The position numbers and the translations under genes are program-made. Under the pieces are notes generated by a model that saw only the letters and a list, made by a program, of their open reading frames with translations, ran no database searches and was not told the origin of the DNA. Positions 18,894 to 22,990 of a stretch of DNA of 64,000 nt are shown here, one piece after another; positions within the stretch are counted from its first letter, which is position 1; every line of letters starts with the position of its first letter. This DNA is from Akkermansia sp. (GTDB taxonomy: Bacteria; Verrucomicrobiota; Verrucomicrobiia; Verrucomicrobiales; Akkermansiaceae). The stretch lies in the NCBI GenBank assembly GCA_017415555.1, contig JAFQGF010000017.1, positions 1-64,000 on the forward strand. Direction: 5' to 3'.

Positions 18894-20303
18894 TCAGTGA
18901 ACGCCGCGAATGTGTTCCACCATACGGCAAGCCTCTTTCGGCACATACTCCTGCCAAGCGTTATCGCCTTCATGAATCATGCGGATAATATCACGAGGAG
19001 TCCGGAAAAGAAGTTTCTGGTTGAAGTATGGCACCGAAATAATATCCGCATTATCCAGCAAATACTTGTAAAGATGCACATACTTGGTGGGAGCCACGTA
19101 TGTACCGGCTGTCACAAACTCGCCCGTGCGGCGGTTAATCCACGGAGTGACGTAAAGTTTGGTGCGGTTGAGGAAGAGGCTGCCCATATCACTGAGGATA
19201 CCGCCGGGACTATCCGTTGCCCACTTATCCTTAAACAACTCGTTCAGCAGGCCGATAGAAAGCGCAATAGCAATGGGCTCCCGGGTAAACTGATTGAGCA
19301 AGGCAGAGATTCGGTGGAAGTGGGTGATATTCGTCACCATCACCGTCTTGCCACAAGCGGCCAGAGCATCTGCCCTGTCGATAAACTCCAGCAAATCGAC
19401 CTCCCTTCCCTCGCCTCGGAGAAGGTTGGAAAGGGATATTTCGCAGATATCCACCACGCGCTCGTGCTGAGCCTCCGGCAGAGACTCCGTGAATTTGGTA
19501 CGCACGGCATCCATCATCTCCAAGTGAATATTGCAGAGCGGCAGGAAGCTGCCACGCATCAGCACAATGGGGCGTTTGTACAGGAAATCGGCAGGCTGGG
19601 CCACCGTGCCATCCGGGCAGAAAAGTGTAGCCTTGCTGAGCCCACTACGCACAAGCTGCAGTGCCAGAATGCGGTTATCGAACATACCAAACCCATTGCC
19701 GGAGAAGCGCATATAATCCACCTCGAACATACTCAGGTCGAGATTATCACCCACCCCCTTCACGAACGCATCCATGTGCTCCCGATTATAGAAAAGAGAA
19801 TGCAACAGATTGACCCCCAGCACCCCCAGAATACGCATCTGCACATCGTGATCCGGCACCAGCAGGCGCACATGCATCACCAAGTCACTGGGCTCGGCCT
19901 GCGGACGCAGTTGAAAACGCACACCAATCCAGGCGCTCCAGGGACCATTGTCGCGGTAGCCCTTGCATTTGACGGTATTACAGAAAGAGAAGAAGCAGCT
20001 TTCCGCACCACGCTTTTCTCCCAAGCGGTTAATGAGCTGAGCATACTCATAATCCATCATCTGCAACAAACGCTCCTGGGACACATAGCGGCGCACCGGG
20101 CCATAGAGCGTGTCGCTCACCGTCATATCGTAGGCAGAAATCGTCTTAGCCACGGTGCCGGCAGCACCACCACTGCGAAAGAACCAGTTAGCGGTCTCCT
20201 GGCCGGCGCCAATTTCTGCGAAAGTACCATATAAAGCCTTATCCATGTTGATTCGGAAGGCCTTTTCCTGAGTTGCGGCAAGGGTTTGAGTATCGGAAGA
20301 CAT
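18894..20303 (-). CDS. Conserved cytoplasmic protein of unknown function
   Basis: 469 residues with no signal peptide or membrane span. The N-terminal block ALYGTFAEIGAGQETANWFF followed by GTVAKTISAYDMTVSD recalls a family spread over Planctomycetes, Bacteroidetes and Cyanobacteria that databases label inconsistently (some as a nucleotide adenylyltransferase, some even as a TonB receptor); I treat these labels as unproven. Other conserved-looking parts are DYMRFSGNGF, FCPDGTVAQP and the VMVTNITHFHRISALL segment. No P-loop or HxGH nucleotidyl-transfer motif is seen. It lies between the class A PBP (19 bp) and sufS (21 bp), probably in one transcript. Confidence 0.8.
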   Translation of the reverse strand: MSSDTQTLAATQEKAFRINMDKALYGTFAEIGAGQETANWFFRSGGAAGTVAKTISAYDMTVSDTLYGPVRRYVSQERLLQMMDYEYAQLINRLGEKRGAESCFFSFCNTVKCKGYRDNGPWSAWIGVRFQLRPQAEPSDLVMHVRLLVPDHDVQMRILGVLGVNLLHSLFYNREHMDAFVKGVGDNLDLSMFEVDYMRFSGNGFGMFDNRILALQLVRSGLSKATLFCPDGTVAQPADFLYKRPIVLMRGSFLPLCNIHLEMMDAVRTKFTESLPEAQHERVVDICEISLSNLLRGEGREVDLLEFIDRADALAACGKTVMVTNITHFHRISALLNQFTREPIAIALSIGLLNELFKDKWATDSPGGILSDMGSLFLNRTKLYVTPWINRRTGEFVTAGTYVAPTKYVHLYKYLLDNADIISVPYFNQKLLFRTPRDIIRMIHEGDNAWQEYVPKEACRMVEHIRGVH

Positions 20304-20322: not shown

Positions 20323-22926
20323 TCAGAAGGGAAGCGGCATCACAGGCATAGTACGCATCTGCCTGGGAGGCGTGAGTTGAATGGAATTATCGATAGCGGG
20401 CTGGTCTGTATCCTCAGCCACATCGTCCATAGAAATGTTCATATCCTCGGCACCGGAGGAAGCAGACTGCGCGAGGTCATCCGCGCTTTTATAGCGAGGA
20501 TTCAGAGTAGTAATACAGCCATAGGGGTCTTCCCCCAGCAGAGCCGAGGCCTTGGGAAGCACCGGCACAATGGGCAGAACTCGGGAGGAACCGGTGTGGC
20601 TGGTCCCCACCTCCAGAAAGTCTCCGAGCGAGGGGCTGCCGTCTCCATGCACTGTGCACATGCCAAGCGTCACATCCCCTTTTGGGAAAAACTCCCGGTA
20701 TGTGGGGCGTGCGTAAGTAGGCTTCCCATCCTTCATTGTTTTCTCGAAGCAGAAATTCGTGGCAAGGTGGCCGGAGGAAAGGCAAATCTCCACCTCCTCC
20801 GTATCCTCCGGTATGTTGATATCAGCATTGGGATAGGAACTCTGGGCCGCCTTGGCTTTGAACACGGCTCCCAACACCGGTGCGCAGGTATCGCCGGCAA
20901 ACGCTTCCGGGTAAATGGCACTGTGGTCGTTGAGGAACCCCATCCAGATACCGCAGGTCACGTCAGCATCGTACCCAAAGAGCGTTGTGTCCGAAAAGTC
21001 ATAATTCGTTCCACTCTTGACGGCCCCCTTGAAAGAATCCGGCAGATAGGGGCGCACACGCACAGCAGAACCTGACGTCATGGATTCCTGCATAATGGAA
21101 TGCAGGCGATAGGCCGTACAGGGCGTGGTACTCTTCACCTGGCTACGCGTCAGGTCATGCGGATTCTGCCAGAGCACCTTTCCGTTGCTGTCCGTCACTT
21201 TGCTCACGATGTAGGGAACCACGGGGCGACTGCCGCAGTTGGGAAACACCGTGTAGGCCAACACCATTTCGCGCAGGCTCATAGGCTCCGTACCCAGGTA
21301 CACACGGGGGTAGTACTGCGGGCGGGCCTCGGTACTGCTCGGATTTCTGTTCGGCGGAGTAATGCCCACATTGGTCAGAGTCGTCACAAAGGGCTTGGCC
21401 GCAACTTTAGGATTGGACGACAGAGCAATTCCCAGGCGTGCCGAGGCGGCAATCTTGGACCAGCAAAGAGCCTGCCGTGCCGTCACCGTATCCAGATAGC
21501 GTCCTTTCTCCACCTCCATACCCCATTCACCCAGAATACCTTCCGTACCACCGATACCGGCCAGACGGTTATCCAGCGCATCGTCCACCAGTCGGCTGCA
21601 GGGGGTATAGCCATTGTCGAAGGCGCACATGTAAAGGAACGGCAACAACGATGTACCCACCGGTCTGCGGCCGCTCTCAATAAAATCGTAATTATCGCGC
21701 CCGAAACTCCGGCCGGCCACATATACCAGAGTAGCACCGGTCTTATTGTCCAGAGCATACACGGCCCCATCCAGATAGCGATGCTTGTTAGCGTCCGGGT
21801 GCTTCCTGTCATCGAACTTCACATGAGCGTAGTCCGGGCGGGCTTCAATCTCGCTCAGGCGGGTACTGAGAGCATCCTCTGCGGCCTGCTGCATGCGTTT
21901 ATCAATAGTGGTATACACCTTCAACCCGGCACTTTTCACGATTTCCTCACCGCGAACGGGATCCTGGAAAAGATCGATAGTCTGCTGCTGAACAAGAGCG
22001 TGCAGATGCGAGGTCTGTCGGCTCAACGGCTTGGGGTTGAGCACCATGGGTTGTTTCTTAAGGCGTTCGGCCTCCTGCAGCGTCAGATAATTCAGGCGTT
22101 GCATGCGGTCTATCACGTCATTTCTCCACTTAAAATTCAGCTCAAAATTACGGATGGGGTTGTAATTCTCCGGGTTCTTGATAAGAGCCGCAATACTGGC
22201 ACTCTCGCGCACAGTAAGATCTGCCGGCTCCTTGCCGAAATACCCCAGAGAAGCCGCGCGAATACCATAATAACCGCGTCCGAAATAGATACGGTTGAGG
22301 TAGAACTCCATAATCTGGCGCTTGTCGTACTTCTGCTCGATACGCATAGCGAGGAAGATTTCCACAATCTTGCGCTCATATTTGCTGCCACCGCGTGCCC
22401 GAGTGCGGTGCTCCAGGTCATACGCATTGCGAGCCAACTGCTGAGTGATGGTAGAGGCTCCCTGATTAGCCCCACCGGCCACAAGAGCCTCTCGTGCAGC
22501 TCGCACAATACCGATGGGGTCGTAACCATTGTGTTTCCAGAAGTTCTTATCCTCCTGTGCCACAAGAGCATCAATCATGCTGTGGGAAATTTTATCGTAG
22601 GTTACATAGCTTCGGTTCTCATCGAAAATGCGCCCTATCTCCTCGCCATTGCGGTCGTAGATGATGCAGGGGTGGTCCAGATTATTGATATCCTCCAAAT
22701 CGAACTCATTGGCCCACTTCTGGTACTTGGCTGTAAAAACATTAAAGCCAACATAGCCCCCCACGGCACAAACGAGAACAAATACACCGAACACAACGGA
22801 GAGGCGAATCAGAAACCGCTTCCAACGGCTTCCCCCACGCGCGACAGCCTCCTTACGGGGAGTCAGGCTGCGCCTGCGGGTCTCCGCCTCCTTGCGGCGG
22901 TTCTGATACTCATCTAAGTCGTCCAT
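20323..22926 (-). CDS. Class A penicillin-binding protein with degenerate transpeptidase site
   Basis: A membrane-anchored peptidoglycan synthase, 867 residues. After a charged N-terminus and one membrane span (about 37-60) comes an intact GT51 transglycosylase: catalytic Glu125 in EDKNFWKHNGYD, then GASTITQQLARN, and RKIVEIFLAMRIEQKYDKRQ. The penicillin-binding domain keeps its overall layout but not its active site. The SxxK position reads TSLL (425-428, in PVGTSLLPFLY), so both the nucleophile Ser and the Lys are lost. The SxN position reads SKI (490-492). Only KSGT (637-640) remains. It may be a transglycosylase only. ATG at 22926 is preferred over a GTG at 22950. Confidence 0.93.
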   Translation of the reverse strand: MDDLDEYQNRRKEAETRRRSLTPRKEAVARGGSRWKRFLIRLSVVFGVFVLVCAVGGYVGFNVFTAKYQKWANEFDLEDINNLDHPCIIYDRNGEEIGRIFDENRSYVTYDKISHSMIDALVAQEDKNFWKHNGYDPIGIVRAAREALVAGGANQGASTITQQLARNAYDLEHRTRARGGSKYERKIVEIFLAMRIEQKYDKRQIMEFYLNRIYFGRGYYGIRAASLGYFGKEPADLTVRESASIAALIKNPENYNPIRNFELNFKWRNDVIDRMQRLNYLTLQEAERLKKQPMVLNPKPLSRQTSHLHALVQQQTIDLFQDPVRGEEIVKSAGLKVYTTIDKRMQQAAEDALSTRLSEIEARPDYAHVKFDDRKHPDANKHRYLDGAVYALDNKTGATLVYVAGRSFGRDNYDFIESGRRPVGTSLLPFLYMCAFDNGYTPCSRLVDDALDNRLAGIGGTEGILGEWGMEVEKGRYLDTVTARQALCWSKIAASARLGIALSSNPKVAAKPFVTTLTNVGITPPNRNPSSTEARPQYYPRVYLGTEPMSLREMVLAYTVFPNCGSRPVVPYIVSKVTDSNGKVLWQNPHDLTRSQVKSTTPCTAYRLHSIMQESMTSGSAVRVRPYLPDSFKGAVKSGTNYDFSDTTLFGYDADVTCGIWMGFLNDHSAIYPEAFAGDTCAPVLGAVFKAKAAQSSYPNADINIPEDTEEVEICLSSGHLATNFCFEKTMKDGKPTYARPTYREFFPKGDVTLGMCTVHGDGSPSLGDFLEVGTSHTGSSRVLPIVPVLPKASALLGEDPYGCITTLNPRYKSADDLAQSASSGAEDMNISMDDVAEDTDQPAIDNSIQLTPPRQMRTMPVMPLPF

Positions 22927-22990
22927 GCTCTTGTGTGGATAGAATAGCACAAGAGCATGGTTATTTCAAGGCACAAATGGCGGGATTCCG

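Follow-up and report, generated by a model that had tools for sequence, protein, structure and literature searches.

Class A penicillin-binding proteins (aPBPs) are defined by two activities, transglycosylase and transpeptidase, and are counted in this way in genome surveys. The roles of the PBP motifs have been reviewed (PMC4810414). The PBP1A-type enzymes of P. aeruginosa and A. baumannii are built of a membrane anchor, a GT51 domain, a linker and a PBP-fold domain carrying KTGT; PBP1C (PbpC) also combines GT51 with a PBP domain, whereas the monofunctional GT51 enzymes (MtgA/MGT, SgtB) have no PBP domain. Non-catalytic roles of PBPs are known for B. subtilis PBP2B (PMC9426605) and C. difficile PBP3 (PMC12539705), which are needed or act without transpeptidase activity of their own, but both are class B proteins in which the catalytic motifs are kept. 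In a survey that traced the loss of aPBP, Akkermansia was counted as simply retaining it, motif loss going unmentioned in the parts of the paper available (PMC8406291). In the openly accessible literature searched, no paper was found that describes an aPBP of Verrucomicrobia as degenerate, and a transposon study of V. spinosum names no aPBP in the portion of its main text available. Genes of V. spinosum can be deleted in a targeted way (PMC12283558).

The window, that is, the whole stretch of 64,000 nucleotides analysed here, belongs to a 2.0-Mb draft genome of Akkermansia sp. (79% complete), the nearest named relatives of which are Akkermansia assemblies mostly from the gut of cattle, sheep, goat, deer and buffalo. 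It carries a gene of the aPBP type, with the features listed below. Residues are counted from an in-frame GTG at 22950, which adds 8 to the numbers of the earlier note and opens a frame of 875 residues; nevertheless, the ATG at 22926 is the likelier start, since it is the one at which the orthologues begin (MDDLDEYQ-type start), so that the reading frame and coordinates first given for the gene were right.

20323..22926, minus strand: class A PBP-like gene with a putatively dead transpeptidase site (ATG start, 867 aa)
22708..22830, minus strand: predicted N-terminal membrane helix, residues 41-81 (AlphaFold helix; hydrophobic on reading)
22099..22647, minus strand: GT51 transglycosylase domain with catalytic Glu133 (Pfam PF00912, E 2e-59; conservation)
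20746..21786, minus strand: penicillin-binding/transpeptidase-fold domain, residues 389-735 (model pLDDT mostly >90; match to the PonA1 transpeptidase domain)
21643..21654, minus strand: SxxK position, T433-S-L-L436 (alignment and conservation)
21514..21540, minus strand: clade-specific GxxGEWGxE motif, residues 471-479 (conservation)
21451..21459, minus strand: SxN position, S498-K-I500 (alignment and conservation)
21007..21018, minus strand: KTGT position, K645-S-G-T, retained (alignment and conservation)

A perfect 13-bp inverted repeat (CCATGCTCTTGTG / CACAAGAGCATGG; window 22923-22960) ends over the start codon. It is partly present in two relatives (L040 and L042) and absent from the others, and was discarded as a conserved element, not being kept beyond the closest relatives.

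The earlier note had described a protein with an intact GT51 domain and a lost transpeptidase site, and the motif states on which this description was based hold across the Akkermansiaceae. In addition to the PF00912 match, the catalytic Glu133 of GT51 is invariant in 124 of 124 sequences, and GT51 should be active because its residues are conserved. The transpeptidase profile PF00905 gave no match to the protein at E 1e-3. A phmmer search of solved structures matched the region to the PBP1a proteins of P. aeruginosa, A. baumannii and H. influenzae, with T433 in the place of the SxxK nucleophile Ser and L436 in that of its Lys; G-T-S-L-L-P is aligned with G-S-S-F-K-P and G-S-T-I-K-P of the P. 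aeruginosa and A. baumannii proteins, and SKI with their SRN. Among 42 sampled Akkermansiaceae the nucleophile column is always Thr, Lys never occupies the base position, SK[IVL] is always found at the SxN position, and K645 and G647 are each present in 41. All 67 Akkermansiaceae orthologues have Thr433 and Ser498 and lack Lys436 and Asn500, position 436 being Leu, Phe, Ile, His or Tyr across the family. The alignment with PBP1a and orthologues that had been proposed as a check has thus borne out the reading of SxxK as TSLL, with both Ser and Lys gone, of SxN as SKI, and of KSGT as kept. An SxxK located elsewhere in the PBP domain was also looked for, and none of the strings at 512, 588 and 603 is conserved; in a few relatives S-G-x-K-P occurs immediately upstream of the SxxK position, out of register. 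Of the marks of a bifunctional class A PBP, GT51 with its catalytic Glu, the PBP transpeptidase fold and KTG(T) are present, while SxxK with Ser and Lys (0/67 Akkermansiaceae) and the Asn of SxN (0/67) are missing.

The single protein of the earlier note is one of an entire clade, of ancient origin, in which intermediate stages are preserved. Matches at E < 1e-118 were obtained in 112 of the 117 genomes of the family; in the remaining five (G015, G029, G062, G091, G106), some of them incomplete drafts, the matches were weaker and comparable with those of the active paralogue. Some match was found in all 142 genomes sampled from the order, and clade members occur in at least six more families of the class. 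No match was obtained outside the class at E 1e-90 among 240 sampled genomes of the phylum, the samples of class and phylum being a draw and not a census. The wider Verrucomicrobiia clade as collected comprises 149 members from 12 families. Position 433 is Thr in 145 of these and Ser in 4, which may be retentions or reversions; because it is common to 145 of 149 members, the shared change from Ser to Thr is far from chance. Position 436 is Lys in 24 members and Leu, Thr, Phe, Ile, Met or, in a few, some other residue in the rest. The Lys-bearing relatives consist of 21 with T-x-x-K and 3 with Ser, and the latter (L092, L161 and L162, from one genus of the order) have a complete set of S-x-x-K, SKN and KTGT, so that, judged by the motifs, not every member of the clade is dead. 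Outside Akkermansiaceae, Asn is common at the SxN position, and 31 of 82 relatives have Gly at residue 498.

Trees built without the motif columns recovered the clade with support of 99 (FastTree) and 100/99 (IQ-TREE) and placed it as sister (96/89, IQ-TREE) to the active paralogue, which is intact (Ser 16/16, Lys 16/16) and includes a protein of the same genome (L116). The fewest changes required inside the clade are 2 for Ser/Thr, 7 for Lys and 7 for Asn. These results fit a succession in which D,D-transpeptidase catalysis would have been lost early in Verrucomicrobiia, with Ser changed to Thr at the base, followed by repeated loss of Lys and then by loss of the SxN Asn in Akkermansiaceae, an order of losses that depends on the provisional branching among order-level lineages.

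An AlphaFold2 model computed on 106 aligned relatives has a mean pLDDT of 87.5 and exceeds 90 over most of the GT51 and PBP domains. Among the matches listed by VIA-align, the best by Z is A. baumannii PBP1a (Z 45.3, rmsd 8.0, 491 residues, both domains), and for the PBP domain the closest is M. tuberculosis PonA1 (5crf; Z 40.9, 2.5 A over 347 residues). The model thus predicts with confidence that the PBP fold is retained, fold likeness being no proof of function. PDB entry 7u4h is labelled PBP1A of Chlamydia trachomatis, a source label that may be wrong; Chlamydia is reported to be without class A PBPs (PMC8406291).

Compared with the systems mentioned above, the protein shares the architecture of the PBP1A type, but it lacks the nucleophile Ser, the base Lys and the SxN Asn, and GxxGEWGxE replaces the usual segment. 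The NCBI models place it near PBP1A, below the cut-off: TIGR02074 (PBP_1a_fam) gives 364 bits against a cut-off of 508.75, which the active paralogue L116 (465) also fails to reach and L109 (540) exceeds. The score for TIGR02073 (PBP1C) is far below the cut-off (241.7 against 494.2 bits), which sets the protein apart from PBP1C, and that for TIGR02070 (monofunctional glycosyltransferase) falls short as well (128.5 against 182.65 bits), the PBP domain being present. The expected activity, glycan polymerisation without cross-linking, is that of the monofunctional enzymes, from which the protein differs in keeping a full PBP domain under selection. It would resemble PBP2B and PBP3 in acting without transpeptidase activity of its own, with the difference that here catalysis appears to have been lost in nature.

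Other enzymes capable of cross-linking are encoded in the same 2-Mb genome. They include the intact aPBP L116 (GSLFKP, SRN, KTGT), further PF00905 proteins and seven candidate L,D-transpeptidases of the YkuD type (L138-L144); a PBP1C-like protein with an intact GSTLKP (L004) is encoded by a separate gene, and one FtsW/RodA is present. Thr at the nucleophile position and Leu at the base position should abolish acylation. Since the catalytic residues are absent, established PBP chemistry (PMC4810414) argues that transpeptidation is lost, and with Ser and Lys missing the protein would not bind beta-lactams covalently. As the cell has other cross-linkers, we regard the protein as a glycosyltransferase whose PBP domain is non-catalytic, and it is probable that an ancient aPBP subfamily has become a GT51 polymerase of this kind, the strands of which are cross-linked by other enzymes. 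It would be a membrane-anchored peptidoglycan polymerase whose PBP-fold domain serves as a non-catalytic module; its cleft, in which KTGT and the serine of SxN are still present, would most likely hold stem peptides non-covalently or dock partner proteins, such binding would position or gate the attached polymerase, and the cross-linking of nascent strands would fall to the active aPBP, class B PBPs or L,D-transpeptidases that the cell also has.

It could also be the case that only GT51 is needed and that the rest is a decaying pseudo-domain, kept merely for folding or stability. Such a course is indeed taken in the same genomes by a second GT51 lineage of about 600-640 residues (G000:C53:13843-14820, which is L123; L124-L127; L233-L241), in which GT51 is intact and the PBP domain is shortened and without SxxK, SxN and KTG. 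This lineage appears still more decayed than the protein in question; with it, dead PBP domains are present in two of the four GT51 proteins found in the genome. In genome G006 the second-lineage gene (L125) adjoins the intact paralogue (L114). Selection was compared by median pairwise omega among nine human-gut-type Akkermansia genomes (dS ~0.4, unsaturated). The values were 0.060 for the dead PBP domain and 0.062 for its GT51, 0.031 and 0.040 for the respective domains of the active paralogue, and 0.085 and 0.026 for those of the second lineage. The PBP domain of the active paralogue is thus tighter than the dead one, as decay would have it, but the dead domain is under purifying selection as strong as that on its own GT51 and, relative to GT51, is far more constrained than that of the second lineage. 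Moreover, T433, P437, S498, K499, K645 and G647, columns of the former active site, are among the 30 most conserved of 346 in Akkermansiaceae, and GxxGEWGxE is nearly invariant clade-wide, the active paralogue having there the usual WxPxN-type segment, with only the Trp in common. Decay therefore seems unlikely. The earlier note had also argued against it, from the intact frame, and is strengthened on this point by the class-wide conservation, the equal omega and the confident fold; a stepwise loss throughout a clade under strong selection points instead to a maintained non-catalytic role.

A further reading is that catalysis has been rewired, with Thr433, or Ser498 with Lys499 or Lys645, serving as nucleophile and base of a slow transpeptidase or carboxypeptidase. 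Thr433 is nearly invariant, S498, K499 and K645 are invariant or nearly so in Akkermansiaceae, and 21 relatives keep T-x-x-K, all of which would suit this reading, but the variety of residues at the base position throughout Akkermansiaceae, the Gly at 498 in many relatives outside the family and the drop of the PF00905 score from an S-x-x-K member to the protein of the window make it highly improbable. A sequencing or assembly error, or a mutation of one strain, might be suspected in a draft of this completeness, but the chance of it is negligible and it is refuted by the orthologues, since 67 Akkermansiaceae sequences share the motif state and come from independent assemblies, single-contig genomes among them.

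With regard to the preferred non-catalytic role, what the dead domain binds, whether stem peptide or partner protein, is a matter of speculation; peptide sensing or partner docking would fit, since KTGT and Ser498 are kept and a new invariant motif is present. It is possible, and we suggest it tentatively, that the domain acts as a sensor that binds uncross-linked stem peptides non-covalently and switches GT51 on or off, the polymerase not being inhibited by beta-lactams. Speculatively, the contacts might be made by KTGT and the SxN serine, both of which are kept, and by the GEWG loop, which is new. If so, Verrucomicrobiia would have a class A polymerase whose activity follows the state of cross-linking and which is itself insensitive to beta-lactams.

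A lineage found throughout a class would thus have dropped one of its activities and kept the domain under strong selection. The series S-x-x-K, T-x-x-K and T-x-x-L plus the change from N to I would amount to a natural separation of function, with which the role of an aPBP's PBP domain apart from catalysis can be studied, and it bears on the reading of beta-lactam targets in Akkermansia from annotation.

The gene neighbourhood was considered as a clue to function and set aside, since the recurrent neighbour supports orthology only. This neighbour is a divergent gene that on reading is methyltransferase-like, and it occurs at 12 of 18 loci outside Akkermansia. Downstream in the window (18894-20303), a gene of 469 aa without a Pfam match adjoins the PBP gene in the ruminant-type Akkermansia, and it is found nearby in some other Akkermansiaceae.
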